Source of the DNA: Deltaproteobacteria bacterium
GTDB taxonomy: Bacteria; Desulfobacterota; Syntrophobacteria; Syntrophobacterales; Syntrophobacteraceae
Assembly (NCBI GenBank): GCA_021793275.1
Contig: JAJYTC010000029.1
Location: 1 to 35,155 of the forward strand
Length of the DNA stretch: 35,155 nucleotides
Direction: 5' to 3'
Part shown: positions 7,791 through 35,155 of the stretch, one piece after another
Layout of the letters: the number at the start of each line of letters is the position of its first letter
Numbering within the stretch: position 1 is the stretch's first letter
Position numbers and translations under genes: made by a program
Notes under the pieces: model-generated
What the model was told of the DNA's origin: nothing
The model's input: only the letters and a program-made list of their open reading frames with translations
Databases searched by the model: none

Positions 7791-7898
7791 CTTCATTCCC
7801 AGCAACCGCAGTAAGCTCTACCATTGCAATCCGGCCAGCAATCGGCAGGCGCATCCAAAGACCCATAGCAAGGCATGATAATAACCGACTTTTGTCAG

Positions 7899-8612: not shown

Positions 8613-10762
8613 TAAAGACACCCGGCGACGTAAAGACATATAAAAAGGATTTGAAGCGCGCTCTTTCGAACACATTCCTGGGCGCCACACTGGACGCTTT
8701 TGCAAGCGCTTACCCTGCATCGCGGGCTAACGCGTTTTCGGGAATCGATTTCGAAGCCCTTGCGGCTGAAATAGCAAGGGCCAAAGACGAATCCATCCCC
8801 AATCTCGAGAAGCTTCTCGAAGAATTCACCGTGCAGGCGCAGAAGGCCGGGGCCGTGGTCCATTTTGCCCGCACGGCTTTCGAGGCCAATTCCATCATTG
8901 CTTCGATAGCCGAAGAAAATGGTGTCAGGCGGATCGTCAAGGGTAAATCGATGACCGCCGAAGAGACTTTTTTAAATGATCACCTCGAGCGGTCCGGATA
9001 TGAAGTGACCGAGACCGACCTGGGCGAGTGGATTATCCAGATGCGGGGCGAAGGGCCCTCTCATATGGTAATGCCTGCCATTCATCTGTCGCGCAGGGAG
9101 GTTGCCGAGCTTTTTACGAAAGTAACGGGACAGGCGCAGGACCCCGACGATATCGGCGCAATGGTAAGGGTGGCGAGAAGCGAGCTTCGCCGCAAATTCC
9201 TGGAAGCCGACATGGGAATAAGCGGCGCAAACTTCGCCATAGCGCAAAACGGCGCTATCGGGCTGGTTACAAACGAAGGAAACGGCCGGCTCGTGACAAC
9301 TCTTCCGCGTGTTCACGTCGCGCTGGTGGGCGTCGACAAACTCGTCCCGGATGTCAAATCCGCCATGAGGATACTGACGGCCCTTCCACGCAATGCCACG
9401 GGCCAGCTCATCTCGACCTACGTCACCTGGATTACCGGCGCGGTGGAGTGCAAATCGGCGCCCGGGTCCAGGAAGAGCATGCACATTGTTTTCCTCGACA
9501 ACGGAAGGCTCGCGCTGGCCAAAGACCCGGTATTCTCGCAGGCGCTCAGGTGTATCCGTTGCGGGGCATGCGCAAACGTCTGCCCCATCTACAAACTTGT
9601 TGGCGGGCATAACTACGGCCATGTCTATATTGGCGCCATCGGACTCGTTTTGACCTACTTCTACCACGGACGACAGAACGCGCGGGCGATCGTAAGAAAC
9701 TGCCTCAACTGCCGGGCCTGTAAATCGGTGTGTGCCGCAGGAATCGACCTCCCTCGACTGATAAAGGAAGTCTACGGCGCGATCCTCGAGGTGGAGGGCG
9801 AAAAGCCGGTAAAAAACGTCCTGCTGGAGAAAACGCTTGGAAATCGACGGCTGTTTCACTTCTTGCTGCGAAGCGGTTCGCATTTGCAAGCACCTGTTGC
9901 CGAAGGGCGGTTTCTGCGGCATCTGCCGTTAATTTTCTCCGAGGAACACCAGTTCCGAAGGCTGCCCGCACTAGCAAAAGTCCCGCTCAGGGACAAGTGG
10001 GAAAAGATCAATCCCGTAACTCAAAATCCCCGCTACAAAGTGGCTTTCTTTGGAGGATGCCTGACCGATTTCGTCTACCCCGAGCAGGGGCAGGCCCTTT
10101 TGGACGCATGCAGGGACCTCGGAGTGCGGTTTGAATATCCCATGGAACAGACCTGCTGCGGGCTGCCCGCGCTCATGATGGGAGAAAAGGAAACCGCCAG
10201 ACGTGTTGCCGTTCAAAACATCAAGGCCGTCGATCCGGCGGAGTTCGATTACGTGCTGACGCTGTGCGCCTCCTGCGGCTCACATCTCAAGGAATACGTG
10301 AACCTTCTCTCCGATGAACCGCTCCTTGGCGTGAAGGCCGCTCAATTGAAGGACAAGGTGATCGATTTCAGCTCATTTATGACAAAAGTGCTTAAAATCG
10401 ATCCAAGCCAATTCCTGGCAGGAGGAGGCAAAACGGCCTATCACGCTCCGTGCCACCTCTGCCGCGGGCAGGGAGTGAGAGAAGAGCCGAGGGAGCTTCT
10501 TGCGATCGCCGGTTTAGAATATGTCCAGACCAAAGACGAGGAAGTGTGCTGCGGATTCGGAGGCTCCTTTTCATTGGATTTTCCGGAGATATCGGCCGAG
10601 CTTCTCAAACGGAAACTGGACAATGTGGCGGCTTCGGGCACCGGAGCACTGGTGACCGACTGTCCGGGATGCGTTTTGCAGCTAAAAGGCGGAATGGAGA
10701 ACAGAGGCGGCGCAATCGAAGTCAAACATATAGCCGAGATTGTCGCCGAACGCAGAAAATAG
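8609..10762 (+). CDS. Fused LutB-LutA-type L-lactate dehydrogenase iron-sulfur protein
   Basis: A 717-residue fusion of the LutB and LutA functions, as in Desulfovibrio-type sulfate reducers. Residues about 50-300 are a LUD domain (ISGANFAIAQNGAIGLVTNEGN is the signature). Two [4Fe-4S] motifs follow, CIRCGACANVCP from residue 315 and CLNCRACKSVCAAG from 365. Two CCG domains occupy about 475-715: FFGGCLTDF (Cys484), QTCCGLPAL and LCASCGSHL, then YHAPCHLC, EVCCGFGGSF and DCPGCVLQL. It would oxidise L-lactate to pyruvate with LutC and pass electrons onward through iron-sulfur clusters to a membrane or soluble acceptor not in this window. The start overlaps the LutC stop. Length and order match a complete protein. 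Confidence 0.9.
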   Translation: MIKTPGDVKTYKKDLKRALSNTFLGATLDAFASAYPASRANAFSGIDFEALAAEIARAKDESIPNLEKLLEEFTVQAQKAGAVVHFARTAFEANSIIASIAEENGVRRIVKGKSMTAEETFLNDHLERSGYEVTETDLGEWIIQMRGEGPSHMVMPAIHLSRREVAELFTKVTGQAQDPDDIGAMVRVARSELRRKFLEADMGISGANFAIAQNGAIGLVTNEGNGRLVTTLPRVHVALVGVDKLVPDVKSAMRILTALPRNATGQLISTYVTWITGAVECKSAPGSRKSMHIVFLDNGRLALAKDPVFSQALRCIRCGACANVCPIYKLVGGHNYGHVYIGAIGLVLTYFYHGRQNARAIVRNCLNCRACKSVCAAGIDLPRLIKEVYGAILEVEGEKPVKNVLLEKTLGNRRLFHFLLRSGSHLQAPVAEGRFLRHLPLIFSEEHQFRRLPALAKVPLRDKWEKINPVTQNPRYKVAFFGGCLTDFVYPEQGQALLDACRDLGVRFEYPMEQTCCGLPALMMGEKETARRVAVQNIKAVDPAEFDYVLTLCASCGSHLKEYVNLLSDEPLLGVKAAQLKDKVIDFSSFMTKVLKIDPSQFLAGGGKTAYHAPCHLCRGQGVREEPRELLAIAGLEYVQTKDEEVCCGFGGSFSLDFPEISAELLKRKLDNVAASGTGALVTDCPGCVLQLKGGMENRGGAIEVKHIAEIVAERRK

Positions 10763-20283: not shown

Positions 20284-22695
20284 TTACTTTTTGGCCGAAC
20301 CGCCCGGCGCTTTTCCCTCGCTCGACCGGAGCGCCTCTTCTTTTTTCCGCCTGTACTCCTTGATTGCCATATACACTCTCTCGGGTTTCATGGGAAGCTC
20401 GAAAATTCTCACCCCTATGGCATCGTATACGGCGTTCAAAATCGCCGGGATAGCGGGCATAATGGCCCCCTCGCCTACTTCCTTGGCGCCGAAAGGACCG
20501 TTAGGCTCCTTGCTCTCGATGATAATGGGCTCAATCGCCGGCATATCAAGGGCGCGCGTAATCTTGTATTCGGCAAGGTCGTCATTTAGGACCCGGCCTT
20601 TATCATCGAATTTCACCTCCTCGAAGAGGGCCTCGCCCAGCCCCATCGAGAGCGACCCGTTCATCTGCCCTTCCACCGAGGTCCGGTTTATCGCCAGACC
20701 GCAGTCATGGGCGTCGGTCATCTTTTCGATGTTGATCTTGCCCGTTCCCTCGTCGACGCTAAGCTCGACGACCTGGGCCGAACACCCGTAGGCGGGCGAA
20801 GTGCCGACCGCTGCACCCTTGTGCGTACCGCCAAGCTCCGGTGGCTTGTATTTGCCCTTCCCTACGATGCTCCCCCTGGAAAGAAAGGCGATTCGCGAAG
20901 CTTCTTTGAAAGAAAGCTCTTCGTCCATGCCCGGATTATCGGTCCAACCCCGGTGTTCTTTGATATAACGAGTCCTAAGAGCGCTAAAGTCGGGTTTTTC
21001 CTTCCTGAAGACAATAAAGCCCTTCTTAATATCCATATCCTCAATGGGAACATGCAATTCTTCAGAAAGCACTTCGAGCACCTGGCGTTTTATGTCTTCC
21101 CCGGCCTCTTTTGTCGCCAGGCCGGTCATGAGGGTCTGACGGCTCGAATACGCCCCGAGATCGACGCCAAAATCCGTATCGCCCGATTCGAGCCTTACGC
21201 ATTCCAACGGAATTCCCATTGCCTCGGCGGCTATCATGGCAAAGGTCGTATCCGACCCCTGGCCTATCTCCGCCGATGCCGTGTAAACCAGGGCGGTCCC
21301 GCCGTCTTCGGTAAGCTTGATGATGACCGTTCCGTGAAAGGTGTCGGAGCGATAGATGGGATAGCCGGCCCCGGAGACGAAAAATCCGCAGCTCATGCCA
21401 ATGCCTTTACCCGGAGGAAGCTTGCCCTTTTTCTCTTTCCATCCCGAGCGGTCTCTTACCGCCTCGACACACTCTTTCATCCCAAGGCTGCTCATGTCCA
21501 GAAAGTTGCAAGTGACATCGCCGGCCTTCATCATATTTTTCAGACGCAGTTCGATCGGGTCCATGCCGAGTTCTTCAGCTATCATGTCCAGTTGCTGCTC
21601 CCAACAGGCCCTCGCTATAACACCGCCGTGGCCCCGTTGGGCCCCGCAGGCGGGCAAATTGGTGAAGACGCGATAGCCGTCATATTTCATGTTCGGCAGC
21701 TTATAGGGACCGCCCAGAAGTGAGCCGGCATAATATACCGTGGCGATACCGAAGCTCGAATAAGCTCCGCCGTTCAGATAGCATTTGTGCTCGAGGGCCA
21801 TTATGGCGCCGTCTTTTTTGACGCCGGTGGTCATGGTATGGAAGAACTGATGCCTCGCCCTGCCGTGCATGAAGACCTGCTGTCTATCGAAGTTCATCTT
21901 GACAGGCTTTCCGGTCTTCATGGAAAGGAGGCAGGCCGCAAGCTCCAGATGACTCGCACCCGCCTTGGGGCCAAATCCGCCGCCCACATATGGCTTTATC
22001 ACCCGGACTTTTCCGACCGGCAGCCCCAGCACCATGGCTATGATGCGCTGGAGATAGTGCGGGACCTGGGTGGAGGAATAGACGGTCAGGTTCCCGGAAA
22101 AATCATAAGAGGCAAGGCATCCCTGGGGTTCGATAAAGGCAGCGTCCTGACGTTTGTTGACCAGTGAACTCGTCTTTATCAGGTCGCATTTCTTGAAGGC
22201 GGCCGCCACATCTCCGAACTCGTCATGCACCTCGGCGGTTATATTGCGAGGATAGGCCGCATGCAGAGCAGGAGCGCCTTCGGCCATCGCCTCTTCCACG
22301 GTAAAGACCGCAGGAAGCTCACGGTATTCCACTTTTATCAAGGAAACGGCTTCCAAAGCCGTATCGAGGTCCGTCGCCGCCACGGCAGCGATATTGTCTC
22401 CCACATGCCGAACCTTGTCATGGCAGAAAAGCGTCTCGTCGTAGCGCGCCGGACTGACGCCGTATTTGACCAGTCCCGCTTCTTTATAGGTGACAACCGA
22501 TTTGACGCCCGGAAGCCTTTCGGCGGCCGACGTATCGATATTGAGGAGCTCCCCATGGGCCAGAGGGCTCTGCAACAGGGCGCCATAGAGCATTCCCGGC
22601 ATCTTTATATCGTCAACATAGACGGCCCGCCCCCTGACTTTATCAGAGGCATCCACCCTGGCCGCCCTGGTATTGATAACATCATATTCACTCAT
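20284..22695 (-). CDS. Molybdenum-hydroxylase large (Mo-cofactor) subunit, xanthine dehydrogenase family
   Basis: An 803-residue subunit that binds the molybdopterin cofactor and substrate. The N-terminal domain (about 20-120) has VRGRAVYVDDIKMPGMLYGALLQSP. The Mo-binding domain follows with IKPYVGGGFGPKAGASH, GAQRGHGG, ASAEIGQGSDTTF, and the C-terminal GAKEVGEGAIMPAI bearing the presumed catalytic Glu. The form I CO-dehydrogenase active-site loop (AYXCSFR) is absent. The GAQRGHG segment resembles 4-hydroxybenzoyl-CoA reductase-type enzymes, but the substrate (aromatic, purine, N-heterocycle, aldehyde) cannot be assigned. The start at 22695, with GGGGGA seven bases upstream, is preferred over the longer frame to 22803. 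It is the last gene of an iclR-FAD-FeS-Mo operon. Confidence 0.92.
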   Translation of the reverse strand: MSEYDVINTRAARVDASDKVRGRAVYVDDIKMPGMLYGALLQSPLAHGELLNIDTSAAERLPGVKSVVTYKEAGLVKYGVSPARYDETLFCHDKVRHVGDNIAAVAATDLDTALEAVSLIKVEYRELPAVFTVEEAMAEGAPALHAAYPRNITAEVHDEFGDVAAAFKKCDLIKTSSLVNKRQDAAFIEPQGCLASYDFSGNLTVYSSTQVPHYLQRIIAMVLGLPVGKVRVIKPYVGGGFGPKAGASHLELAACLLSMKTGKPVKMNFDRQQVFMHGRARHQFFHTMTTGVKKDGAIMALEHKCYLNGGAYSSFGIATVYYAGSLLGGPYKLPNMKYDGYRVFTNLPACGAQRGHGGVIARACWEQQLDMIAEELGMDPIELRLKNMMKAGDVTCNFLDMSSLGMKECVEAVRDRSGWKEKKGKLPPGKGIGMSCGFFVSGAGYPIYRSDTFHGTVIIKLTEDGGTALVYTASAEIGQGSDTTFAMIAAEAMGIPLECVRLESGDTDFGVDLGAYSSRQTLMTGLATKEAGEDIKRQVLEVLSEELHVPIEDMDIKKGFIVFRKEKPDFSALRTRYIKEHRGWTDNPGMDEELSFKEASRIAFLSRGSIVGKGKYKPPELGGTHKGAAVGTSPAYGCSAQVVELSVDEGTGKINIEKMTDAHDCGLAINRTSVEGQMNGSLSMGLGEALFEEVKFDDKGRVLNDDLAEYKITRALDMPAIEPIIIESKEPNGPFGAKEVGEGAIMPAIPAILNAVYDAIGVRIFELPMKPERVYMAIKEYRRKKEEALRSSEGKAPGGSAKK

Positions 22696-22745
22696 CGATA
22701 TTTCCCCCATCCCTGCCGCCGGCCAAGGGGCTGCGGCGCGCGGCG

Positions 22746-23204
22746 CTATTTGCTCACAGATTTCACGGCATCGATGATCTGGAGATATCCCGTGCACCGG
22801 CACAGATTTCCCGATATCCCCTCCCGAATTTCGTCTTCGGTCGGATGCGGGTTCTCATCCAGAAGGTTTTTTGCGGAAAGCACCATCCCCGGGGTACAAA
22901 ACCCGCACTGGATGGCCCCTTTCTCAATGAACGCCTGCTGCAGCGGGTGCAGCCCGTCCTTACCCTCCACACCTTCAATGGTGGTGATGGTCCTGCCGTC
23001 GGCCTGCATCGCCAGAACGAGACAAGAGTTGACCGGGGTCCCGTCCAGAATCACCGTGCATGCGCCGCAGTCACCCTCCCCGCAGCCGTTTTTGGTCCCT
23101 GTCAGCCCCAAATCATAGCGGATCATGTCCACCAGAGTTTGGTTCGGCTTAACCGCCACTTCATACTCCACACCGTTAACCGTCACACGAATCAGCTTTT
23201 TCAT
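22746..23204 (-). CDS. [2Fe-2S] small subunit of molybdenum hydroxylase (CoxS/XdhC-like)
   Basis: A 152-residue electron-transfer subunit with both [2Fe-2S] clusters of the family. The plant-ferredoxin-like N-terminal cluster has GCGEGDCGACTVILDG (about 42-57, last ligand in NSCLVL). The C-terminal four-helix cluster has QCGFCTPGMV (about 97-106) and GNLCRCTGY (about 129-137). It carries electrons from the Mo site to FAD. GGGAG precedes the ATG at good spacing. Gaps of 46 bp to the FAD gene and 50 bp to the Mo-subunit gene fit one transcript. Confidence 0.95.
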   Translation of the reverse strand: MKKLIRVTVNGVEYEVAVKPNQTLVDMIRYDLGLTGTKNGCGEGDCGACTVILDGTPVNSCLVLAMQADGRTITTIEGVEGKDGLHPLQQAFIEKGAIQCGFCTPGMVLSAKNLLDENPHPTEDEIREGISGNLCRCTGYLQIIDAVKSVSK

Positions 23205-23250
23205 GAAACGCTCCCTTAACGAACCAGCGTCGATCGACCGTTTTTTGCAG

Positions 23251-24141
23251 CTATGCCGTAAGCCCCATCGCTTCCCTGTACGCCATGGTAAGCGTCCTCA
23301 CGGTCAATTCCTTAACCATGTCTTTTTTGTATTCCGCCGAGGCACGCGAATATGCCGAACCTCTTGGGGTCGCAGCTTTCATTGCAGCCTCCCCGGCACT
23401 CTGGAAAAGCGCTTCGGAGGGTTTTTCGCCTATGAGCAGCGACTCAGCCGCGAGCGCCCTCACGTGAGTGGGCGCCACGCAACCCATAACGATCCTCGCA
23501 CTCTTTACGGCGCCGCCCGGGCCGTCGAGCGCGATATAGGAGGCCACGTTCAAAATATTGATGTCGCAGGCATTGCGAATGCCCAGGTTGAAATAGCCGG
23601 CCCCGGAGTGGGCCGGCGGCTCGGGTATCCTGATTTCAGTAAGAATTTCATCGGGCGTCATTACAGTCACCCCGGTACCCTTGAAAAAATCGTCGAGGGA
23701 GACGACTCTTTCCCCGGACGTGTTTTTGAGCACCAGACTTGCCCCGTAAGCCATCAAAGGAGGAGGCATATCGGCGGCCGGTCTTGCCGACGCCAGGTTT
23801 CCGCCCACGGTTGCGAGGTTGCGGACCAGACACGACCCCAGAGCTTTCCCCCCGGCGCACAACGCGCCCCACTTCGCGCCTATTTCCTTCGATTTCACTA
23901 TTCGCGAAACGGTAACGCAGGCGCCGATTTTCAAAAGGCCGGGCGCTTGATCGATTGTTTTCAGTTCTTCGATTTGCGGAATGGAGATCACATGCTCCGG
24001 TGATATCCGCTTCCTTCTCATGTCTAGCATCAGGTCCGTTCCGCCTGCGAAAATCTTCGCTTTGTCGCCATATTCGGCGACCATCCGGCAGGCCTCGTCA
24101 ACGGTCCCCGGCGCATGGAAATCAAATTCGGGCAAAGACAT
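23251..24141 (-). CDS. FAD-binding subunit of molybdenum hydroxylase (CoxM-like)
   Basis: A 296-residue flavoprotein subunit. The N-terminal FAD-binding segment reads AKIFAGGTDLMLDMRRK (about 33-49), and the second FAD motif is LVRNLATVGGNLASARPAADMPPPLMAYGA (about 104-133). A CO_deh_flav_C-type end follows. The extra [4Fe-4S] insertion typical of 4-hydroxybenzoyl-CoA reductase HcrB is not present, which argues against a simple HcrABC assignment. GGGGAG precedes the ATG. It begins 21 bp after the iclR-type gene. Electrons would leave through FAD to NAD+, ferredoxin or another acceptor. Confidence 0.92.
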   Translation of the reverse strand: MSLPEFDFHAPGTVDEACRMVAEYGDKAKIFAGGTDLMLDMRRKRISPEHVISIPQIEELKTIDQAPGLLKIGACVTVSRIVKSKEIGAKWGALCAGGKALGSCLVRNLATVGGNLASARPAADMPPPLMAYGASLVLKNTSGERVVSLDDFFKGTGVTVMTPDEILTEIRIPEPPAHSGAGYFNLGIRNACDINILNVASYIALDGPGGAVKSARIVMGCVAPTHVRALAAESLLIGEKPSEALFQSAGEAAMKAATPRGSAYSRASAEYKKDMVKELTVRTLTMAYREAMGLTA

Positions 24142-24162
24142 GTCATTTCTCCCCGTTCGTCA

Positions 24163-24927
24163 TTAAAGGCTCCAATCGAACAACTCTCTCGACGCCAAGC
24201 GCGCCGCCTGCGCAACAGCCCCGCCCAGCGCGATGAGACCTTCTTCCCCTAACTGGTCCTGGAAACCCATGGACAAAAAAATGGCCCGCAAACGGTCGCC
24301 ATGCAGAATCGGCGCCGCAGCGGCATACACACCCCGAAGATATTCGCTGCGATCAAGAGCAAGCCTCTCAGCCCTCACACGCCCAAGCTCCTCATTGAGA
24401 GCGGCGACCTCCCCGATAGAGTCTTCGGTAAAACGCGGCAGGACATCGGGCATGGATGCGGCCCCCCAGGCAAGAGCAACCTTGCCGGTGGCTCCGGCCA
24501 GAAGCGGTATGGAACCGCCCTGGACAGCCTTCACCTGGAAAGCTCCGCTTCCTTCGACCACCATTACGATCCGAAAGCGGTCTGTCTCGGGCACTCCGAA
24601 TATTCCCGAATAGCCCGTCTGCTGGACCAGACCCTCCAGGTAAGGCCGGCACATCTCGGCCAAGGTGCGCCCACCCCGTCTTTCGCGGGCGAGTTCTTCG
24701 ACCAGGGGTCCGAGCCGATACTTGTGATCACCAGCGTCTTCAACAGCCCCTGCGCCGAGAAGGCCCTGCAGAATTCCGTGAACGGTGCTTTTGCCGATAC
24801 CCAAAGCCCGGGCCAGGGCGGAGACCCCAAGAGGCGCCTTCTCCCGGCCGAGAAACTTGAGGATGGCGAAGGCCCGATCGACGGCGGGTGCGGGCGAGGT
24901 TTTGTTCAGCGTATTGAACGAGTTCAT
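24163..24927 (-). CDS. IclR-family transcriptional regulator
   Basis: A 254-residue regulator. It has an N-terminal winged helix (about 15-75) with AVDRAFAILKFL and LARALGIGKSTVHGILQGL, then an IclR effector-binding domain (about 80-250) with LGPLVEELAR, LLAGATGKVALAW and YLRGVYAAAAPI. IclR proteins usually sense a catabolic substrate or product and control the adjacent operon. Here it is the first gene of the unit encoding the molybdenum hydroxylase, so substrate-dependent autoregulated control is likely. There is no strong ribosome site before 24927. Confidence 0.92.
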   Translation of the reverse strand: MNSFNTLNKTSPAPAVDRAFAILKFLGREKAPLGVSALARALGIGKSTVHGILQGLLGAGAVEDAGDHKYRLGPLVEELARERRGGRTLAEMCRPYLEGLVQQTGYSGIFGVPETDRFRIVMVVEGSGAFQVKAVQGGSIPLLAGATGKVALAWGAASMPDVLPRFTEDSIGEVAALNEELGRVRAERLALDRSEYLRGVYAAAAPILHGDRLRAIFLSMGFQDQLGEEGLIALGGAVAQAARLASRELFDWSL

Positions 24928-25990: not shown

Positions 25991-26278
25991 ATGAAATTCT
26001 GGCGCGTTCCCCTCGATACCGAACAGATCGTCATCACCAGGGGCGTGGTCCACATCATAGAGGACCGGTGCAAGGGGTGCGGCTACTGCATCGACTATTG
26101 CCCCAGAGGCGTTCTTGAAGCTTCCAGCCGGTTCAATAACAAGGGGTATCATCCCCCGGTGGTGAGGCAGCCCGATCTGTGCGTAAATTGTCACTATTGC
26201 GAGGCCATCTGCCCCGACTTTGCCATCTACTCGGTGGAAGCTCCCGCGCAGCCGATTTCCGAGCTTCCGATCAAGTGA
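25991..26278 (+). CDS. korD: 2-oxoacid:ferredoxin oxidoreductase delta subunit (ferredoxin-type)
   Basis: A 95-residue 2[4Fe-4S] protein. The first cluster motif is CKGCGYCIDYCPRGVL (about 24-39) and the second CVNCHYCEAICPDFAIY (about 64-80). It belongs to the delta subunit of 2-oxoacid oxidoreductases, which accepts electrons from the thiamine-diphosphate subunit and hands them to ferredoxin. I took the ATG at 25991, preceded by AAAGGT; an in-frame TTG at 25970 is less likely. It is the first of four kor genes, 8 bp before korA. Confidence 0.9.
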   Translation: MKFWRVPLDTEQIVITRGVVHIIEDRCKGCGYCIDYCPRGVLEASSRFNNKGYHPPVVRQPDLCVNCHYCEAICPDFAIYSVEAPAQPISELPIK

Positions 26279-26286
26279 GTCTTTTT

Positions 26287-27435
26287 ATGGAACCTGCCGT
26301 TCTCACCGGAGAGCATTTTCTCAATGGCGACGTGGCATGCGCCGAAGGAGCGCTGGCCGCCGGATGCCGCTTCTTTGCCGGCTACCCCATAACCCCCGCC
26401 ACCGAGATAGCCGAGCACATGTCCAAGCGGCTACCGCAGGTCGGAGGGGTCTTTATCCAGATGGAAGACGAAATAAGCGCAATGGCGGCAATCCTTGGCG
26501 CCTCCTGCGCGGGGGCGAAAAGTATGACGGCCACCTCGGGTCCCGGTTTCAGTCTTATGATGGAAAACATCGGGCTGGGGATTACGATGGAGACCCCGTG
26601 CGTTTTGGTGAACGTGCAGCGGGCAGGCCCTTCGACGGGACTTCCGACCCTTGGCGCGCAGGGCGACATGATGCAGGCCAGATGGGGTTCACATGGTCAC
26701 TACGAGATCATAGCGCTTGCGCCGGCATCACCCCAGGAGATTTTTTATCAGACCATTACGGCCTTCAACCTGAGCGAAACCTACCGGCTTCCCGTGCTGA
26801 TAATGGCCGACGAGATAGTGGGCCATCTGAGCGAGAGGGTGATCATACCGGATTCGTCAAAAATAAAGCTGCGGTCCCGACCGCGTCCCAAGGGAAGAAA
26901 GGACCGTTTCCTGCCGTATCGGCCGGGCGCGAACGGTGTGGCGCCGATGGCCCACGCCGGTGAGGGCTACATGGTTCACTTTACGGGCCTGACTCATGAC
27001 GAGAAGGGCTATCCGGTAATGACCGCCGAGGCGCAGGCTGAAATGGTCGATCGCATCACGGGAAAAATACGAAAGAACCTCGACAGGATAATTCAGGTGG
27101 AAAGGTATCGGCTCGAAGATGCCGAGGTAGCCCTCATATCTTACGGGATCAGCACGAGGAGCAGCCTAGCTGCGGTTGATGAGGCGCGGGAACAGGGCAT
27201 AAAAGCGGGCCTTCTGAGGCTTTTGACGGTTTGGCCTTTCCCGGAAGATATGGTTAGAGAGCTTGCAAAACGCGTAAAGGGCCTCATCACGGTGGAACTA
27301 AACCTTGGGCAGATTCACCTCGAAGTGCAGAGGTGCGCGGAAGGCAGGGCGCCGGTAGTTCTCGTCGGGCATGCCGGAGGGTCGGTAATCACACCTGAAG
27401 AGATAGTGGAAAAAATTAAAGAACAGGTTGGATAG
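26287..27435 (+). CDS. korA: 2-oxoacid (2-oxoglutarate):ferredoxin oxidoreductase alpha subunit
   Basis: A 382-residue alpha subunit. The N-terminal pyrimidine-binding domain shows GEHFLNGDVACAEGAL, FFAGYPITPATEIAE, QMEDEISAMAAILGAS and KSMTATSGPGFSLM. The middle part has QRAGPSTGLPTLGAQGDM, and the transketolase C-terminal-like domain ends near the stop. With KorB it decarboxylates a 2-oxoacid with CoA to an acyl-CoA and reduced ferredoxin. The four-gene D-A-B-C order and sequence style fit 2-oxoglutarate, but a branched-chain or other 2-oxoacid is possible. The frame extends upstream to 26179 within korD; the ATG at 26287 is the natural start. Confidence 0.9.
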   Translation: MEPAVLTGEHFLNGDVACAEGALAAGCRFFAGYPITPATEIAEHMSKRLPQVGGVFIQMEDEISAMAAILGASCAGAKSMTATSGPGFSLMMENIGLGITMETPCVLVNVQRAGPSTGLPTLGAQGDMMQARWGSHGHYEIIALAPASPQEIFYQTITAFNLSETYRLPVLIMADEIVGHLSERVIIPDSSKIKLRSRPRPKGRKDRFLPYRPGANGVAPMAHAGEGYMVHFTGLTHDEKGYPVMTAEAQAEMVDRITGKIRKNLDRIIQVERYRLEDAEVALISYGISTRSSLAAVDEAREQGIKAGLLRLLTVWPFPEDMVRELAKRVKGLITVELNLGQIHLEVQRCAEGRAPVVLVGHAGGSVITPEEIVEKIKEQVG

Positions 27436-27534
27436 GACGAAAAAAAAGAAAAAAGCAAAAAACAAAAAGCAAAAAAATAAGACAAATAGGACGCATAGGA
27501 CATATAGTTGCCCTGCTCTGGGTCAGGATATTTC
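27436..27534 (+). repeat. Low-complexity A-rich and nonamer-repeat spacer inside the kor operon
   Basis: The korA-korB gap is an A-rich stretch with repeated AAAAAGC-like units, followed by ATAGGACGC, ATAGGACAT and ATAG, a short nonamer array. It is unlike the tight junctions elsewhere in the cluster and has no coding capacity. Confidence 0.6.
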
Positions 27535-28359
27535 ATGAACGGCAGCACATCTTCTCAAAAGCACCCGCTGGACGGCCTGCTTCGAACGGATCGCATACCG
27601 CACATATGGTGCCCGGGATGCGGAATCGGCACTGTCTTTTCCTCGTCTCTTATCGCCATCAGGTCAACGGGGGCTGAGCCGATGAAGACCGCGGTAGTCT
27701 CGGGGATAGGGTGCACAGGAAGAGGCGCGGGCTATGTCAATCTCGATTCCTACCACACCACGCACGGCAGGGCGATTCCGTTTGCCACCGGCATGAAGCT
27801 CGCCAATCCCGAGCTTTCGGTGGTCGTTTTCAGCGGCGACGGGGACCTGTTTGCAATCGGCGGCAATCACTTCATCCACGCGGCAAGGCGCAACATGGAC
27901 CTTACGGTAATCTGCGTAAACAATCTCAATTACGGCATGACGGGAGGACAGGCCGCCGCTACGACCCCTTATCTCGCCAAGACATCGACAACGCCGCTGG
28001 GAAATCCCGAGGCGCCGTTCAACCTGCCGCTTCTGGCATACGCATGCGGCGCCACCTACATCGCGCGCTGGACAATGCTTCATACGCGGGACCTTACCCA
28101 GTCGATAACCGAGGCCCTTACGCGCACGGGTTTTTCCTTCATCGAGGTCCTTGCCCCCTGCCCTACCGGCTACGGCCGCAAAAACAAGCTCAAAGCCAGT
28201 GATTTGCTGAAGGTCTACCAGGAAAAGGCAATAGTGAAAAACGGCGCCAACCCCGCCGAAACGATCCTCGATCTGGAACAGGGAATAACTCTTGGCAAGT
28301 TTGTGGAGTACGACAGGCCGACTTTTGCGCAAAACTACAAGGCAGTGACCAGTGATTAG
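27535..28359 (+). CDS. korB: 2-oxoacid:ferredoxin oxidoreductase beta (ThDP-binding) subunit
   Basis: The 274-residue thiamine-diphosphate subunit. It has IWCPGCGIGTV (cluster/ThDP region, about 23-33), SGIGCTGRGAGYVN, the GDGDLFAIGGNHFIHAARRNMDLTVICVNN ThDP/Mg motif (GDG...N, about 102-131), and YGMTGGQ. These are the standard elements for the site where the 2-oxoacid is decarboxylated. Start: ATG at 27535 with AGGA about seven bases upstream; a TTG at 27508 is less likely. It is followed 13 bp later by korC. Confidence 0.92.
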   Translation: MNGSTSSQKHPLDGLLRTDRIPHIWCPGCGIGTVFSSSLIAIRSTGAEPMKTAVVSGIGCTGRGAGYVNLDSYHTTHGRAIPFATGMKLANPELSVVVFSGDGDLFAIGGNHFIHAARRNMDLTVICVNNLNYGMTGGQAAATTPYLAKTSTTPLGNPEAPFNLPLLAYACGATYIARWTMLHTRDLTQSITEALTRTGFSFIEVLAPCPTGYGRKNKLKASDLLKVYQEKAIVKNGANPAETILDLEQGITLGKFVEYDRPTFAQNYKAVTSD

Positions 28360-28372
28360 CGGATGGTGAGCG

Positions 28373-28942
28373 GTGAGAAAAGAGATCCTTATAACAGGCC
28401 TGGGAGGACAGGGCATCGTGCTTGCGGGCCAGGTGCTCGGCATGGCCGCCTGCCTGGCGGACCACCTCGAGACCAGTTTTACGCAGTCCTACGGTCCCGA
28501 GGCGCGCGGGGGCGCGTGCAGCGCCCAGTTGATAATATCGGACAAGCCGATCCATTACCCTTACGTGCGCGAGGCCGATATCCTTGTATGCATGTCACAG
28601 GGGGGATATGAAAAATATCGCCCCATGCTGAAGGACGAAGGGACACTGATAATCGACCAGGACATGGTGCGATCGGGCGAGGCAGTCCCCGGGGATGTTT
28701 TTTCGGTTCCGGCGACCCGCATGGCCGAGGAACTTGGCAGAAAAATGATGGCCAATATAGTCATGCTCGGCTTTGTCACATCGGTTACGAGCGCCGTTTC
28801 ACTCGAAGGGATGCTGTCCTCTGTTGCCGATTCGGTGCCCAAGGGGACCGAGAAGACAAATATCGCGGCCTTCAACAAAGGCTACGATTTAGGGCAGGCG
28901 ATGCTGAAGGCCAGGATGAAAAAGGCCGCCGCCAGGCATTAA
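28373..28942 (+). CDS. korC: 2-oxoacid:ferredoxin oxidoreductase gamma subunit
   Basis: A 189-residue gamma subunit with the family opening ILITGLGGQGIVLAGQVLGMAA (about 5-26), SYGPEARGGACSAQLI (about 43-58), and the C-terminal part with NIVMLGFVTS. It completes the four-subunit enzyme. Translation starts at GTG 28373, in a GGTGAGCGGTGAG context that itself repeats a heptamer-like unit. The next gene starts 21 bp later, so the hdr genes are very likely co-transcribed with kor. Confidence 0.92.
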   Translation: MRKEILITGLGGQGIVLAGQVLGMAACLADHLETSFTQSYGPEARGGACSAQLIISDKPIHYPYVREADILVCMSQGGYEKYRPMLKDEGTLIIDQDMVRSGEAVPGDVFSVPATRMAEELGRKMMANIVMLGFVTSVTSAVSLEGMLSSVADSVPKGTEKTNIAAFNKGYDLGQAMLKARMKKAAARH

Positions 28943-28963
28943 AACAAAGAACAGGGCTGATTG

Positions 28964-31900
28964 ATGAAAGACCCCAGGGAACGCCTTCAAAAGGTGTGCA
29001 TAATAGGCGCGACGCCCGCCGGAATTGCCGCAGCGAACAAGCTGGGCGAGATGGGGATACCGGTCACACTGATCGACGAGGCTGGCGATCTGAATGAGAA
29101 GCTCTCATGTGAAGCCTGGAGGATGGACTCCGGGGTTCTGTTCAACTACGCCATGCGCCCCGGGCTTCTTAGGATAATGAGAAATCCGAGAGCAAGACTC
29201 GTTCTTCCCGCTTCCGTCAAGTCGATCAAACACACTCCGCAGGGATTTTCGATACGGTACAAAAAGGCGCCCACTTACATAGACAGGGGAAAGTGCACGC
29301 TTTGCGGGCTTTGTTGGCAGGCTTGTCCAGCGATCGGCCCGGACGGTAAAAAGGCGCTAAAATTCGGCGGCAGGCACGCTCTTCCGGGCAGGCCGGTAAT
29401 CGACAAGCGCAAGGCCCCTCTTTGCCAGGCCAATTGCCCGCTCGGGGTAAACGTCCAGGGATACATGGCCCTTACGCGCGCGGGAAAGTATGGTGAAGCG
29501 CTCGAACTGATCAGGAAGGACAACGTTTTACCCGGCATCTGCGGCAGGGTCTGCACCCATCCGTGCGAGGCCGCATGCCGCAGAAACGAAATCGACCAGC
29601 CCCTTGCCATACGCGACGTGAAGCGATTCGTTGCCGACAGCGCGCCGCCTGCGCCCTTCGGGCAGAAAGCGGTAAAGACCCGGGCCGAGAAAATTGCGGT
29701 GGCGGGTTCGGGACCCGCCGGACTGGCTGCGGCATCCGATCTTGCCCGTTCGGGATATCGGGTCACGGTCTTCGAGAAAGAAAAAGCGCCGGGGGGACTT
29801 TTGCGTTACGGGATCGGAGCGCACCGTCTTCCGCGAGCCGTGATCGACCGGGAAATCGATTATCTTCACGGGCTCGGAGTCCAATTCCGCCTCGAAAGCG
29901 AGTATAAACCGCAGGAGGGCTCGGAGTTTTCCGCGGTCATCCTGGCCACAGGGTTATGGGAAGATCGAAAGCTTAACGCCCCCGGAGAAGCACTCGAGGG
30001 CGTTTCGGGATGCGTGTCGTTTCTTTGCGGTGTACACCGGGGACAAATAAAGTCAGTTACGGGGAAAACCGCGGTTATCGGCGACGGCAATTCCGCATTT
30101 GAGGCCGCACGCACCCTGGCGCGCCTTGGCGCGGAAGTTACACTGATCTCCTGGTTTCCCGGGGAGCTTATCCCTGCCGACGAGCGCGAGGTCGAAGAGG
30201 CCGCAAAAGAGGGAATAGCGATAAAGACCAGCCTGAAAGTCGCCGAGTTCGTGGGCGCTGGGGGGAAGCTAAAAGCTATTCGCTTTATTCCTACCGTTCC
30301 CGGTCCGCCTGACGCAAATGGAATCCCCTGGCCCATTGCGGCAGAGGGGGGAAAGCCGGTAGAGATCGAATTCGAACGCGCCGTAGTAGCGATTGGCCAG
30401 ACGGCAAACCCGGCATCTTTCGAAGGTTATGGAGAAGCGTTCACTACGGCTTCCGGGCTGATACAGGTTGGCGAAAACGGTGAGACACGGGAGAAGAAGG
30501 TCTTTGCCGCAGGAGATGCGGCAAGCGGCCCATCGACCGTCGTGTCCGCCATGGCCTCCGGTCGCGCGGCCGCAAAGGCTGTTCACAGGTTGATCAGCGG
30601 GGAAGACCGGGCTTCAGAAGAGGGTGTAGTTTACAGGCGCCGGGAGGTGGACTATCCGGAGATTACCACGGAGATTGCGTCCGTGCCGCGCACAATGATG
30701 TCGGAACGCAATCCCGCTTCGCGCCTGCAACTTTCAACCGAGGTCGAACTCGGACTGAGCGAAGACCAGGCCCGCGCGGAGGCGTCGAGGTGCCTTCAGT
30801 GCGGAGTTTGCTCCGAATGCGGCCAGTGCGTGGAAGCATGTTCGGCAGCCAGGGCAGTTTTGCACGCCGAGGATTGCTCAGATGAGATCGAACATGCGGG
30901 GGTGGTCATTATCACCGATCCTGCATCGGCCCCGAGTATAAAAGGCGAGGACGTTATCCGCGCTTACAGCTCGAAGGCCATCCAGCCGGACGTTTTCGCC
31001 ATGATGCTGCGCGGGTTCGCCGCGGCGGCTGAAACCGCTCTTTTGCTTGGCGAGAGCACTGCACGCCTTAAGGGCGGCGGTATTCTGTTTTCGCCGCCGG
31101 AACCTCAGCTCTCGCCGGAGCTTCGCATCGGGGTTTTCGTATGCCGCTGCAACGATTCGCTCGGCTGGGACCCCGAACTGGACAGGCTGATATCCTATCT
31201 TCCCGAGAATTCACCGGTGGAGCATGCCGAGTCGATTCCTTCGGCCTGCACCCCGGAAGGCGCGGCCTCTATATTGAGGACGATTCGTGAAAAGGGCCTT
31301 ACCCGATTCGTTCTGGCTTCCTGCGTATGCTGCCCGCTGGATCTCATATGCACGGCGTGCACCGACCAACGCAGCAGGCTCAAGGCAGCCATTTTCCAGG
31401 GGACCGGCGTTCCGCGGGCGATGGCTGAAACCTGCAACATCAGGGGTGAGGCGCTTGCCCTTTTAGGGAGCAATCGCTCTCTTGCCATAAGCCGCTTTGA
31501 AGGGCTTTTGCAAAGATCGATCCGGCGCACGGCGGGCCTCAAGTCCCTGCCGACTCCGGCGCGCCAGTACAACTTTACGACCGCAGTGATCGGCGAATCC
31601 GAGGCAGCGCTAAGGAGCGCCCAAACCCTGGGTCAAATGGGCATGGAAGTGTTTTTGTTCGGGGGCCGGGACAGGCCGCTCACTCTCACGCCCGCCTACC
31701 CCAACGTTCATGCATTTCCAGGCTCCAGCGCCCGGTCTCTCAAGGGCACGGTGGGAGACTTTCAAGTAATTGTCAGCATGGAGGACGGCACACACCAGGT
31801 TTTCAGCGCCGGAGCGGTAATACTGGGAGAAAGATCGCGAAAGAACATGGCCTATATGCCTCATCCGGACATGCCGCCCCATGAGTTCGAAAACTCCATG

Positions 31901-32314
31901 CAGGCAAGAGGCCGCCTGGGAATCCCGTTCTTCGTTCCGGGAGCGACCTCCATATCGGGGCTTCTGCTGGCCAGTCCGCCCGGCGTCAATATCTCCGAAC
32001 GACTGAAGGGCACTGCGGCGGGGATTCTCGCAGCGACGGTCATGCCTCGCGGCCCCAGGCAGAACAAGGGATATACGGTTTCAATAGATCGGGACCTTTG
32101 CAGAGGATGCGGCCGTTGCATGAAGGCTTGTCCCTATAAGGCCATCAGCTTTCACGCCAATAATGCTCCGCGATCTGGCTACGCGGTTGTCGACGAAGCC
32201 CTTTGCAAGGGTTGCGGCAACTGCATTTCGATTTGTCCGTCCGGGGCGGCCGACAGTCCCTATCGTGAAAGGCGATTCCTCGAACAGGCCATAGAAGAAA
32301 TAGTCCACAAATGA
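28964..32314 (+). CDS. Large HdrA-like / GltD-like / HdrA-like flavo-iron-sulfur fusion protein
   Basis: 1116 residues from the ATG at 28964. Residues 1-105: HdrA-like Rossmann segment with a degenerate GATPAG loop. About 111-122: CTLCGLCWQACP [4Fe-4S]. About 150-210: the GltD-type N-terminal cluster region (CQANCPLGV, CGRVCTHPCEAACRR). About 245-585: GltD/NfnB-type pyridine-nucleotide-disulfide fold with FAD motif GSGPAG (248-253), second dinucleotide motif GDGNSA (373-378) and VFAAGDAASGPSTVV. About 610-630: CLQCGVCSECGQC. About 720-850: HdrA N-terminal domain (IGVFVCRCND, ASCVCCP). Then a degenerate Rossmann stretch and a C-terminal 2[4Fe-4S] ferredoxin (CRGCGRCMKACP from 1046, CKGCGNCISICP). 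It may link NAD(P)H to the Hdr subunits encoded next. The start of the following gene overlaps its stop. Confidence 0.88.
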   Translation: MKDPRERLQKVCIIGATPAGIAAANKLGEMGIPVTLIDEAGDLNEKLSCEAWRMDSGVLFNYAMRPGLLRIMRNPRARLVLPASVKSIKHTPQGFSIRYKKAPTYIDRGKCTLCGLCWQACPAIGPDGKKALKFGGRHALPGRPVIDKRKAPLCQANCPLGVNVQGYMALTRAGKYGEALELIRKDNVLPGICGRVCTHPCEAACRRNEIDQPLAIRDVKRFVADSAPPAPFGQKAVKTRAEKIAVAGSGPAGLAAASDLARSGYRVTVFEKEKAPGGLLRYGIGAHRLPRAVIDREIDYLHGLGVQFRLESEYKPQEGSEFSAVILATGLWEDRKLNAPGEALEGVSGCVSFLCGVHRGQIKSVTGKTAVIGDGNSAFEAARTLARLGAEVTLISWFPGELIPADEREVEEAAKEGIAIKTSLKVAEFVGAGGKLKAIRFIPTVPGPPDANGIPWPIAAEGGKPVEIEFERAVVAIGQTANPASFEGYGEAFTTASGLIQVGENGETREKKVFAAGDAASGPSTVVSAMASGRAAAKAVHRLISGEDRASEEGVVYRRREVDYPEITTEIASVPRTMMSERNPASRLQLSTEVELGLSEDQARAEASRCLQCGVCSECGQCVEACSAARAVLHAEDCSDEIEHAGVVIITDPASAPSIKGEDVIRAYSSKAIQPDVFAMMLRGFAAAAETALLLGESTARLKGGGILFSPPEPQLSPELRIGVFVCRCNDSLGWDPELDRLISYLPENSPVEHAESIPSACTPEGAASILRTIREKGLTRFVLASCVCCPLDLICTACTDQRSRLKAAIFQGTGVPRAMAETCNIRGEALALLGSNRSLAISRFEGLLQRSIRRTAGLKSLPTPARQYNFTTAVIGESEAALRSAQTLGQMGMEVFLFGGRDRPLTLTPAYPNVHAFPGSSARSLKGTVGDFQVIVSMEDGTHQVFSAGAVILGERSRKNMAYMPHPDMPPHEFENSMQARGRLGIPFFVPGATSISGLLLASPPGVNISERLKGTAAGILAATVMPRGPRQNKGYTVSIDRDLCRGCGRCMKACPYKAISFHANNAPRSGYAVVDEALCKGCGNCISICPSGAADSPYRERRFLEQAIEEIVHK

Positions 32315-33894
32315 ATGACGAACTCAAAATAGTTCTTTTTCTGTGCAACTGGAGCCCGCACGCGGCATACCAGACGCTCCAGGACACTCTTGCGCCGCTG
32401 CCCGTTGAAATCCGCATGATAAGGATTCCGTGCAGCGGGCGAATTACGAAGTCGCTTCTCTTCAAGGCTTTCGAGACGGGCGCCGACGGCGTCGTGCTGC
32501 TCGGCTGCGAAGCAGGCGCCTGCCGTTACGGGATCGGAACTCGAGTCGCCCAGAGAAACATTGGCGACACAAGGGGAATTCTTGACCTGCTGGGTCTTGG
32601 AGAGGAACGGCTCGGTTTTGCCTCCTTCAATCCCGATCAGCACCTGGAACTGCTCGCCTATCTGACTGCATTCAGAAACAAGATCGAAGAGCTTGGCAAA
32701 ACACCCGTCGTTCCTGCAAGCCGAGCGAAAGAGGTTGCCCTCTCCGCCGGGTCCGCAGCCTCGATCAGCGCCGCACACAATGTCTACGTCTGCCAGGACT
32801 GCGGCAAATGTTCATCCGCGTGTCCCGTGGCCCTTTCGGGCAAGGAATTTTCTCCCCGGGCAATCGCCAACGCCGTAGCGACCGGCGATCTCGACTCGCC
32901 TGTTATCCGGGAGGACATCTGGTCATGCCTGACGTGCGGCCTTTGCTATGACCGATGTCCTTCCGCGGTCAGCTTTCCCGAGTTCATAAAGGATATGCGC
33001 TGCGCGACGCCGGCGAATGGAAAGTTCAATGCCCACGAAGGTTTTTTCCATTCACTCATGCGCGCCATGACATCTCCGGGGCTGCCCGTCGAACACTGGA
33101 AGTGGCTTCCTTCCGACATTCAGACGGATACGAACAGTAAAATTCTTTTCTTCGGAGGCTGCGCCCCCTACTTCGACACATTTTTCAAAAATCACCTGGG
33201 CATCAGCACAAGCGACATTCTGGTCGATGCGCTCAGGCTCATGAACTTTTTCGACATTCGTCCGGCGATCCTGCAAAACGAGAGGTGCTGCGGCCACGAT
33301 TTGCTGTGGTCCGGAGACCGCGAGAATTTTATCAAGCTTGCCCGGTTGAACGTCGAGCTGATTTCGGCGATGGGGACCCAAGAGTTGGTTACGGCGTGCC
33401 CGGAGTGTTACCGCGCCTTTTCCCGCGACTATCCCGAAAACGGCATAAAAACGGGGTTCAAGGTAACCCATATTTTCGAGCTGGCCGAAGCCGAGATCGG
33501 CAAGGGCGCTGTCGGATTTACAAAACTCAACAGGAAGATAACCTACCAGGATCCCTGCCGGCTCAGCCGTACACAAGCCGGATGCGAATTGCCGCGGGGC
33601 CTTCTGAAGCGCTTAAAGGTAGCCGATTTCACCGAGATGCGGGACCGGGGGGCTTCTTCGCTTTGCTGTGGAAACTGCGCCTGGACGGGATGCGACAGCT
33701 ATTCCAAGGCCATGCAGGTAAACAGGCTGAGGCAGGCCAGGGAAACCGGCGCCAATCTGCTCGTGACGGCATGTCCGAAATGCCAGATTCATCTCAGGTG
33801 CGCCATGGAAGACCCTTTTCTCGAAAACGAAATCCGCATGGAGATGATCGATTTGACTTCCATTCTGGCCAAAACGATACAGTGGGAAGGATAG
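32311..33894 (+). CDS. MvhD-HdrC-HdrB fusion protein
   Basis: 527 residues combining three Hdr/hydrogenase parts. Residues 1-130 are MvhD/FrhD-like (hydrogenase [2Fe-2S] subunit): LFLCNW with Cys12, IPCSGR with Cys41, and GCEAGAC with Cys66 and Cys71. The usual second Cys of the CNWC motif is Ser. About 161-218 is HdrC, with CQDCGKCSSACP and CLTCGLCYDRCP. About 275-520 is HdrB, with two complete CCG motifs: FFGGC (Cys284), RCCGHD, TACPEC; then YQDPC, LCCGNC, TACPKC. These ligate the paired non-cubane clusters that carry out disulfide-type two-electron chemistry in Hdr. The ATG overlaps the preceding stop, which ties its expression to the large flavoprotein. The acceptor is unknown. Confidence 0.9.
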   Translation: MNDELKIVLFLCNWSPHAAYQTLQDTLAPLPVEIRMIRIPCSGRITKSLLFKAFETGADGVVLLGCEAGACRYGIGTRVAQRNIGDTRGILDLLGLGEERLGFASFNPDQHLELLAYLTAFRNKIEELGKTPVVPASRAKEVALSAGSAASISAAHNVYVCQDCGKCSSACPVALSGKEFSPRAIANAVATGDLDSPVIREDIWSCLTCGLCYDRCPSAVSFPEFIKDMRCATPANGKFNAHEGFFHSLMRAMTSPGLPVEHWKWLPSDIQTDTNSKILFFGGCAPYFDTFFKNHLGISTSDILVDALRLMNFFDIRPAILQNERCCGHDLLWSGDRENFIKLARLNVELISAMGTQELVTACPECYRAFSRDYPENGIKTGFKVTHIFELAEAEIGKGAVGFTKLNRKITYQDPCRLSRTQAGCELPRGLLKRLKVADFTEMRDRGASSLCCGNCAWTGCDSYSKAMQVNRLRQARETGANLLVTACPKCQIHLRCAMEDPFLENEIRMEMIDLTSILAKTIQWEG

Positions 33895-34003: not shown

Positions 34004-35155
34004 ATGAAGAAATTTTCTACAAACGGTGAAGCTCCGCGAATTGGCGTCTATGTGTGCCATTGCGGGTTGAATATCGCAGGGACGGTGGATTGCCCGAAGG
34101 TGACCTCGGAGGTCGGCAGGCTTGAAAACGTGGTCCATGCGCGAGACATTCAATATGCCTGTTCCGAACCCGGCCAGCAGGCCATAACCAAAGATATCGC
34201 CGAGCTCGGGCTTGACCGCATCGTGATCGCCTCCTGCTCTCCGAGGCTCCATGAACCGACCTTCCGGCAGATGCTCGAACGCGCGGGCTTGAACCCCTAC
34301 CTGCTCGAAATGGCCAACCTGAGGGAGCAGTGCAGTTGGGTGCACATAAACGAGCGTGGCGCCGCAACAGCCAAAGCAACCGACCTGGTGCGCATGGCGG
34401 TGGCCAGGGCCGCCCGGCTGGAGCCGCTCCAGAGCAGAAAAATACCGCTAAACAGGCGAACTCTCGTCATCGGAGGAGGTATCGCCGGCATCCAGGCGGC
34501 GCTTGACCTGGCCGATAACGGCTACGAGGTGGTCCTGGTGGAAAAAAGTCCCTCGATCGGCGGCAACATGGCGCGGCTCGACAAGACCTTCCCCACCATG
34601 GACTGTTCGATCTGAATACTCGGTCCGAAAATGACCGATGCCGGTCGGCATCCAAAAATCAAGCTGTTGACTCTTTCTGAAGTGATCGATGTAAAAGGAT
34701 ATGTCGGCAACTTCGAGGTCAAGATTTTAAAGAAGGCCAGATACGTATCCGAGAAAGAGTGCACCGCCTGCGGCGACTGCGCCAAGGTATGTCCGGTGGT
34801 GCGTGCGGACGAATTCAATTCAGGTCTTTCCTCCAGAAGGGCCGTTTACTCGCCTTTTCCTCAAGCGGTGCCTTCGGCTTACGTGATCAACATCAACGAG
34901 TGCCTCGGCCATAACCCGGTAGTGTGCGCCAAGTGCGCGGAAGTCTGCGAGAAGAAGTGCATCAATTTTCATATGTCCGATGAGGAAGTGGTCGAAAGCG
35001 TGGGAAGCATCGTCGTGGCCACCGGCATCGAGGCCTATGACCCGACCGAACTCGACGAGTACGGCTATACGCGCTATGAGAATGTGCTGAGCAGCCTGGA
35101 ATTCGAACGGCTGGTGAGCGCGGGCGGGCCGACCGGAGGCGAGCTGATCCGGCCC
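34004..35155 (+). CDS. hdrA: Selenocysteine-containing HdrA, FAD iron-sulfur subunit (partial, runs off window)
   Basis: A heterodisulfide reductase A homologue, the bifurcating flavin subunit. The HdrA N-terminal domain (about 10-130) has IGVYVCHCGLNIAGTVD, YACSEPGQ and IASCSPRLHEPTF. The FAD domain begins with VIGGGIAGIQAALDLA (about 153-168) and GGNMARLDKTFPTMDCSI. The next codon is TGA (34613-34615, residue 204), where homologues have Cys (DCSxC-I-L-x-PKM). The same frame then reads ILGPKM, CTACGDCAKVCPV, RPFPQAVP-like YSPFPQAVPSAYVI, CAKCAEVCEKKC and IVVATG without a stop to the window end. I therefore read TGA as selenocysteine. ATG 34004 is chosen over an upstream TTG at 33986. It is the third Hdr gene of the cluster. 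Confidence 0.9.
34637..34652 (+). promoter_or_regulatory. Bacterial SECIS-like hairpin for the HdrA UGA
   Basis: GATGCC, loop GGTC, GGCATC: a perfect six-pair stem with a GGUC apical loop beginning 27 nt after the TGA. Bacterial SECIS elements sit immediately downstream of the recoded UGA and carry a G/GU-rich apical loop; E. coli fdhF also has GGUC in its loop. Position and loop fit, but binding by SelB is not demonstrated. Confidence 0.75.

Follow-up and report, generated by a model that had tools for sequence, protein, structure and literature searches.

What remains of an MvhD domain that has lost one of its conserved cysteines, and why can it do without it? The question is raised by a gene in the stretch of DNA analysed here (the window: 35,155 nucleotides, forward strand, contig JAJYTC010000029.1 of assembly GCA_021793275.1, from a deltaproteobacterium of the family Syntrophobacteraceae). 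This gene encodes MvhD (FlpD), HdrC and HdrB as a single chain, in which the CNWC motif of ordinary MvhD has become LCNWS. A sequence-only reading had described this fusion and had proposed that the cluster ligation or the partner of the domain is changed, and that the electrons come from a source other than hydrogenase. On balance we lean towards the view that the fusion provides a second, specialised MvhD, carried by the HdrCB part of an HdrL/HdrA2 complex and still holding a [2Fe-2S] cluster by four cysteines.

A variant MvhD joined to HdrC and HdrB

The features of the fusion are the following.

32311-33894, plus strand: FlpD(MvhD)-HdrC-HdrB fusion gene, 527 aa (open reading frame, Pfam, 45 relatives aligned)
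32311-32700, plus strand: variant MvhD (FlpD) domain, residues 1-130; Cys12/41/66/71 present, Cys15 lost
32353-32355, plus strand: codon 15, AGC (Ser); Cys or selenocysteine (Sec) in ordinary MvhD
32776-33015, plus strand: HdrC-like dicluster ferredoxin domain, residues ~156-235; Cys161/164/167/171 and 206/209/212/216
33136-33891, plus strand: HdrB-like domain, residues ~276-527; CCG motifs 284/326-327/363/366 and 416/452-453/488/491

The reading frame starts with ATG and overlaps the stop of the upstream, hdrL-type gene by 4 bases. Pfam recognised FlpD (PF02662) at residues 7-129, with 102.5 bits against a curated cut-off of 22.3, 4Fe-4S dicluster domains at residues ~159-220 and a pair of cysteine-rich CCG stretches, of which the one at 410-496 matched best. 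In the AlphaFold2 (AF2) model of the fusion (mean pLDDT, the model's own confidence score, 70.8), the MvhD part superposed on chain D of 5odc (Z 19.8, rmsd 2.1, 135 residues) and on ElpC (8rvu chain F; Z 19.0); for the C-terminal part the match was HdrB (8rvy chain b; Z 18.7, rmsd 2.7). The fusion and its CNWS motif, with Cys12, Cys41, Cys66 and Cys71 left, were thus confirmed by the reading frame, Pfam, the codon and the predicted fold. Profile (PF02662) and fold both mark the N-terminal domain as MvhD, but the full cysteine set of MvhD (C-x2-C/Sec, Cys41, Cys66, Cys71) is incomplete, Ser standing second in C-x2-C and the other four being there; judged by its sequence, the domain is a variant MvhD and not an ordinary one. 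The remainder has the two 4Fe-4S and two CCG motifs of an HdrC-HdrB (HdrD-like) arm, and all of these motif cysteines are invariant in the 46 aligned rows. The CCG spacings (C-x41-CC-x35-C-x2-C and C-x35-CC-x34-C-x2-C) go slightly beyond the range C-x(31-39)-CC-x(35-36)-C-x2-C quoted in the available part of PMC5296606.

The alignment consisted of the query and 45 relatives (46 rows); one fragment without the MvhD part (L064) was not counted for this domain, leaving 45 rows. The 46 rows include the same genomes from two collections, and distinct fusion MvhD domains number 39. Cys12, Cys41, Cys66 and Cys71 were invariant (45/45). Residue 15 was Gly in 25 of these 45 rows, Ser in 16, Cys in 2, Asn in 1 and Ala in 1. 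In a set of 66 loci, it was read by pattern in 59. The two Cys15 rows (L029 and L058) are identical over the stretch compared, and we took them as one genome reached via two collections; because this member is placed inside the Ser clade of the domain tree, we read its Cys15 as a reversion. The suggestion that Ser as such is a meaningful state did not survive, Gly being the commoner replacement and one member having gone back to Cys. An error or a private mutation was also ruled out by the 45 aligned relatives, since Ser is common to many independent genomes.

Full-length relatives of the fusion (52-91% identity, E <= 9e-196) were found in 31 of 59 near-relative genomes, the own genome counted, and within the same family every one of the 26 genomes sampled (G000-G025) has one. 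An even draw of the phylum gave a match at E <= 1e-120 in 33 of 395 genomes, 3 of them unfused and 1 (G374) without the start of the MvhD domain. Among named genomes, a scan gave 16 loci, with titles from Syntrophobacteraceae, Desulfobacteraceae, Desulfatitalea, Desulfobacterales and Deltaproteobacteria metagenome-assembled genomes, and no record of the plasmid collection covered at least 80% of the fusion query. The fusion MvhD domains form a single clade (support 1.0) in the domain tree, with a weakly supported sister group (0.54).

These domains were compared with ordinary MvhD in a wide alignment of 139 unique FlpD domains, 2 partial ones being set aside. The 96 ordinary domains comprise 13 tails from the same operon, own-genome copies, 30 best-scoring loci and hand-picked short regions. 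Their residue 15 is Cys in 89 and Sec in 7, and Ser in none (0/96), so that the objection foreseen in the sequence-only reading, that Ser might be common in ordinary MvhD, falls away. Residues 12, 41 and 71 are always Cys, and residue 66 is Cys in 83 and Sec in 13; Sec never occupies both 15 and 66 of one domain. Its restriction to these two sites, never together, suggests that they have related roles near the cluster. In the own genome, the 13 ordinary copies aligned have Cys15 (9) or TGA-encoded Sec15 (4). Sec-type MvhD is unusually abundant in this genome (loci L009, L010, L012, L014, L016, L018 and L019), which has 19 FlpD matches at E 1e-10 and, among the copies aligned, eight in which TGA stands at residue 15 or residue 66.

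Cys15 is not the only residue replaced. All 39 distinct fusion domains have Pro16, His17 and Arg72, where ordinary MvhD has mostly Ser, Ala or Thr at 16, Tyr (94) or Phe (2) at 17 and His at 72 (93/96). Residue 67 is mostly Glu (His in 84 ordinary domains) and residue 70 Ser, Thr or Ala (Asp in 83), and Asp21, Gly24 and Asn77, each present in 96/96 ordinary domains, are replaced. The surface facing the partner does look changed, as far as can be judged from these residues, which bears out the sequence-only reading on that point. Leu11, considered as a lost ligand, was dropped, residue 11 varying freely in ordinary MvhD (Leu 36, Ala 24, Cys 19, Val 12, Phe 3, Ile 2).

Did the fusion itself cause the loss of Cys15? 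Three loci (L167-L169, 41% identity), all from one other family, share the operon but keep mvhD and hdrCB as separate frames, and their MvhD reads CNWAP, with Ala15, Pro16 and Trp17. Because these unfused relatives already lack Cys15, they show, at the level of the alignment, that it was lost before MvhD joined HdrCB, and they rule out the fusion as the cause. Between the two domains they have a TGA, which we read as a stop: it falls within the linker, its position differs from one locus to the next, and an ATG follows a few codons later. A fourth locus, L170, reads CQWAPH. All four have Cys at residue 19, one helix turn past the lost Cys15, perhaps a fifth cysteine that has moved; the window does not have it.

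The operon and its second, intact MvhD

The fusion gene is preceded by genes for a 2-oxoacid:ferredoxin oxidoreductase (Kor) and an HdrL-type protein, and followed by hdrA2.

25991-26278, plus strand: korD, 4Fe-4S delta subunit of 2-oxoacid:ferredoxin oxidoreductase
26287-27435, plus strand: korA, 2-oxoacid:acceptor oxidoreductase alpha subunit (NCBIfam 576 bits, cut-off 411)
27508-28359, plus strand: korB, thiamine pyrophosphate-binding beta subunit
28373-28942, plus strand: korG, gamma subunit
28961-32314, plus strand: HdrL-type protein, 1117 aa, a GltD/NfnB-like FAD/NAD(P)H module within HdrA2-like pieces
34004-35155, plus strand: hdrA2, cut by the end of the window and contig; full-length relatives end in a CNWC MvhD domain
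34613-34615, plus strand: in-frame TGA of hdrA2 (MDCSI-U-ILGPKM), at a conserved CxxC position

Of 17 loci (L053-L068 plus the window), 12 hold the full order korD-korA-korB-korG-hdrL-fusion-hdrA2; in the remaining 5 a contig edge cuts the operon, and the genes present agree with it. The next match of korA in the own genome is just 33% identical. In the HdrL-type protein, the GltD/NfnB-like module spans residues ~150-640, between HdrA2-like pieces at 10-128 and 722-1114. The operon contains no hydrogenase gene, neither mvhA nor mvhG of an MvhAGD unit being there, and it has the HdrL-type and Kor genes instead. This agrees with the proposed electron source other than hydrogenase. Such a source does not, however, explain the loss of Cys15, and it was rejected as a sufficient cause: four other HdrL-type loci of the own genome (contigs C238, C275, C13 and C166) have a nearby MvhD that keeps Cys15. 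A hydrogenase-like gene of this genome lies near an ordinary CNWC MvhD on contig C42.

What distinguishes the fusion operon is the second, intact MvhD supplied by HdrA2. An intact CNWC tail on HdrA2 was present beside the fusion in 13 loci of L053-L068, all those with a detected tail domain. The HdrA2 ortholog of L054, with its TGA read as Cys, scored 1189.8 bits with the HdrA2 model (cut-off 1100). It has an HdrA-type FAD site, with K421 and E368 aligned opposite K409 and E356, the Lys and Glu contacting FAD that are named for bifurcation in the available part of PMC12054007; the hdrA2 of the window ends before the Lys. The MvhD that classically partners HdrA is probably, in this complex, the intact copy at the C-terminus of HdrA2, and the fused copy therefore need not bridge to the flavin of HdrA.

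The TGA of hdrA2, which falls at Cys197 of the 5odc HdrA chain (author's count in the alignment), probably encodes Sec; 63 of 66 other loci have it at the same motif, and the sequences of the three without it stop before or at this point. Ordinary gene callers split the gene into two open reading frames there. A test for a bacterial selenocysteine insertion sequence, with 53 nt folded at the TGA of five loci, was not convincing (z -1.69, -0.71, -0.49, 0.74 and -1.61). The candidate tRNA-Sec scored 74 bits; three weaker matches were also above the cut-off, and 5 of 14 control genomes passed it too.

HdrA2 is furthermore collinear with HdrL followed by the fusion: its residues 12-296 and 563-659 correspond to HdrL and 664-804 to the variant MvhD, so that across the gene boundary the ferredoxin part at its C-terminus aligns with the end of HdrL, and the MvhD tail with the variant MvhD. 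According to the available part of PMC2702500, Hdr genes that are separate keep the order in which the domains stand in fused reference proteins.

Elsewhere in the window, molybdenum hydroxylase genes (molybdenum cofactor, 2Fe-2S-like and FAD subunits) and an IclR-type regulator (20284-24927, minus strand) immediately precede the kor operon, on the opposite strand. An FAD-linked oxidase and its Fe-S partner (5110-7805, minus strand) and a LUD-dicluster-CCG protein (8609-10762, plus strand) resemble lactate or glycolate oxidation genes.

Possible roles of the variant domain

We propose that the fusion serves as HdrC-HdrB arm in a soluble complex capable of flavin-based electron bifurcation (or confurcation), in which HdrL and HdrA2 would form an asymmetric heterodimer carrying HdrCB and coupled to Kor. 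The intact MvhD of HdrA2 would serve the bifurcating FAD, as in archaeal HdrA2. The variant would descend from an MvhD which came after the HdrA-like HdrL, was freed at residue 15 and afterwards became attached to the N-terminal end of HdrCB; most likely it would now dock on the HdrL half and tie this half covalently to HdrCB. Because the four cysteines are invariant, we infer that a [2Fe-2S] cluster is retained, more likely held by Cys12, Cys41, Cys66 and Cys71 than otherwise. Such a complex would connect NAD(P)H (HdrL), ferredoxin (Kor and HdrA2) and, at HdrB, a substrate of the disulfide type. By analogy, Flx-Hdr, which exchanges electrons among NADH, ferredoxin and DsrC (PMC10553843, available part), would be a reasonable model.

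Several points weigh against this proposal. The MvhD tail of HdrA2 lies outside the window and is known from orthologs, and the evidence for the four-Cys ligand set is conservation. The AF2 confidence is moderate in the MvhD part (~55-93 per 10-residue block, and <50 for residues 42-44), and the HdrL model is poor (pLDDT 56.2). Ordinary MvhD was sampled mainly from the high-scoring members of a single phylum, with low-scoring FlpDs under-sampled, and the TGA of the three unfused relatives could in principle be read through.

We considered the possibility that ligation is changed, Cys15 being normally a ligand for which Cys66, or an oxygen or nitrogen ligand such as Ser15 or His17, would substitute here, with a shift in potential. 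The fixation of Cys or Sec at residue 15 in all 96 ordinary domains speaks for this, as does the joint appearance of Pro16 and His17 with the loss of Cys15, and two QmoB copies have likewise exchanged Cys15 (for Asp) while keeping the other four cysteines. The idea keeps some weight because the placing of Sec, as if 15 and 66 were interchangeable, suggests related roles near the cluster. Yet in most members residue 15 is Gly, unable to act as a ligand, residue 17 is Trp in the three early-branching relatives, so that no single new ligand fits, and the remaining four cysteines suffice for a [2Fe-2S] cluster; we hold a changed ligation to be rather unlikely. It is less probable still that HdrL replaces one half of an HdrA dimer and that the two MvhD domains split their roles, the Cys/Sec15 of the HdrA2 copy, beside its [2Fe-2S] cluster, being redox-active and passing an electron pair to the flavin, with the variant as a one-electron relay.

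A variant without any cluster, merely tethering HdrCB to HdrL, would account for the rewriting of the cluster-side shell (C15, Y17, H67, D70, H72, D21, G24 and N77 replaced in most or all members). We regard it as improbable: the four cysteines do not vary, and mean identity to the query is 69% in the MvhD domain, near that of HdrC (72%) and HdrB (73%) and far above that of the linker (39%). Equally doubtful is the notion that Ser15 reflects a sequencing error or neutral variation at an unimportant position. The drift of residue 15 among Gly, Ser, Ala, Asn and Cys within the fusion family, with one return to Cys inside the Ser clade, fits neutrality there, but outside this family and QmoB the residue is fixed as Cys or Sec, and Ser itself recurs in many independent genomes. 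Residue 15 thus appears unimportant in the fusion family, but not in ordinary MvhD.

The preferred reading, a second MvhD with a four-Cys cluster, suggests that Desulfobacterota possess an uncharacterised NAD(P)H-ferredoxin-disulfide complex linked to the oxidation of 2-oxoacids. The operon also bears on an open question, how MvhD passes electrons to the bifurcating flavin of HdrA: the MvhD-FAD distance is given as >30 Å (PMC6019823) or 25 Å (PMC12350162), and the two-electron hand-over from MvhD to the FAD is described as unknown in the latter (available parts of both). One presumed complex offers a natural pair, MvhD with Cys/Sec15 and MvhD without, which makes the role of the residue directly testable; were the split of roles true, Cys/Sec15 would be part of this hand-over.

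Comparison with known systems

In the available parts of the open-access literature searched, we found no description of an MvhD-HdrC-HdrB chain, of an MvhD without Cys15 or of a Kor-HdrL-HdrA2 operon, and the ligand residues of the MvhD [2Fe-2S] cluster are not named. Sec-containing mvhD genes are already listed (PMC2702500) and an MvhD motif CxxU with two Sec has been reported (PMC13188914), according to the parts of these papers available.

The MvhD of HdrABC-MvhAGD (5odc chain D) and ElpC (8rvu chain F) share the fold and PF02662 with the fusion, which keeps four of the five conserved cysteines. Unlike them, it lacks Cys15, has the Tyr17/His67/Asp70/His72 shell replaced, is joined to HdrCB and belongs to an operon without a hydrogenase gene. 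QmoB, whose C-terminal FlpD domain belongs to QmoABC in the same genome, also lacks Cys15 and keeps the other four cysteines, but it has Asp15 in a CEND motif, is part of a membrane quinone complex and falls outside the fusion clade. A second QmoB-like FlpD domain (L005; CEND, Asp15) is on contig C211, the QmoABC locus being on C237. A Protein Data Bank search with QmoB matched HdrA and MvhD chains and no QmoB entry at E 1e-15.

Desulfobacterium autotrophicum HRM2 (PMC2702500, available part) likewise has an HdrA/glutamate-synthase fusion (HdrL), an HdrC-HdrB fusion (HdrD), Sec-containing HdrA and MvhD, and a collinear gene order. There, mvhD is a separate gene beside hdrL, and neither an MvhD-HdrC-HdrB chain nor a loss of Cys15 was seen in that part. 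HdrA2B2C2 of Methanosarcina acetivorans (PMC5296606, available part) contains a type Ia HdrA2 with a C-terminal MvhD, and the hdrA2 of the operon passes the corresponding model and, in orthologs, has the MvhD tail. In contrast to the archaeal complex as described there, the system studied here has an in-frame TGA (probable Sec), HdrB and HdrC in one chain with a second MvhD, and an HdrL-type partner.

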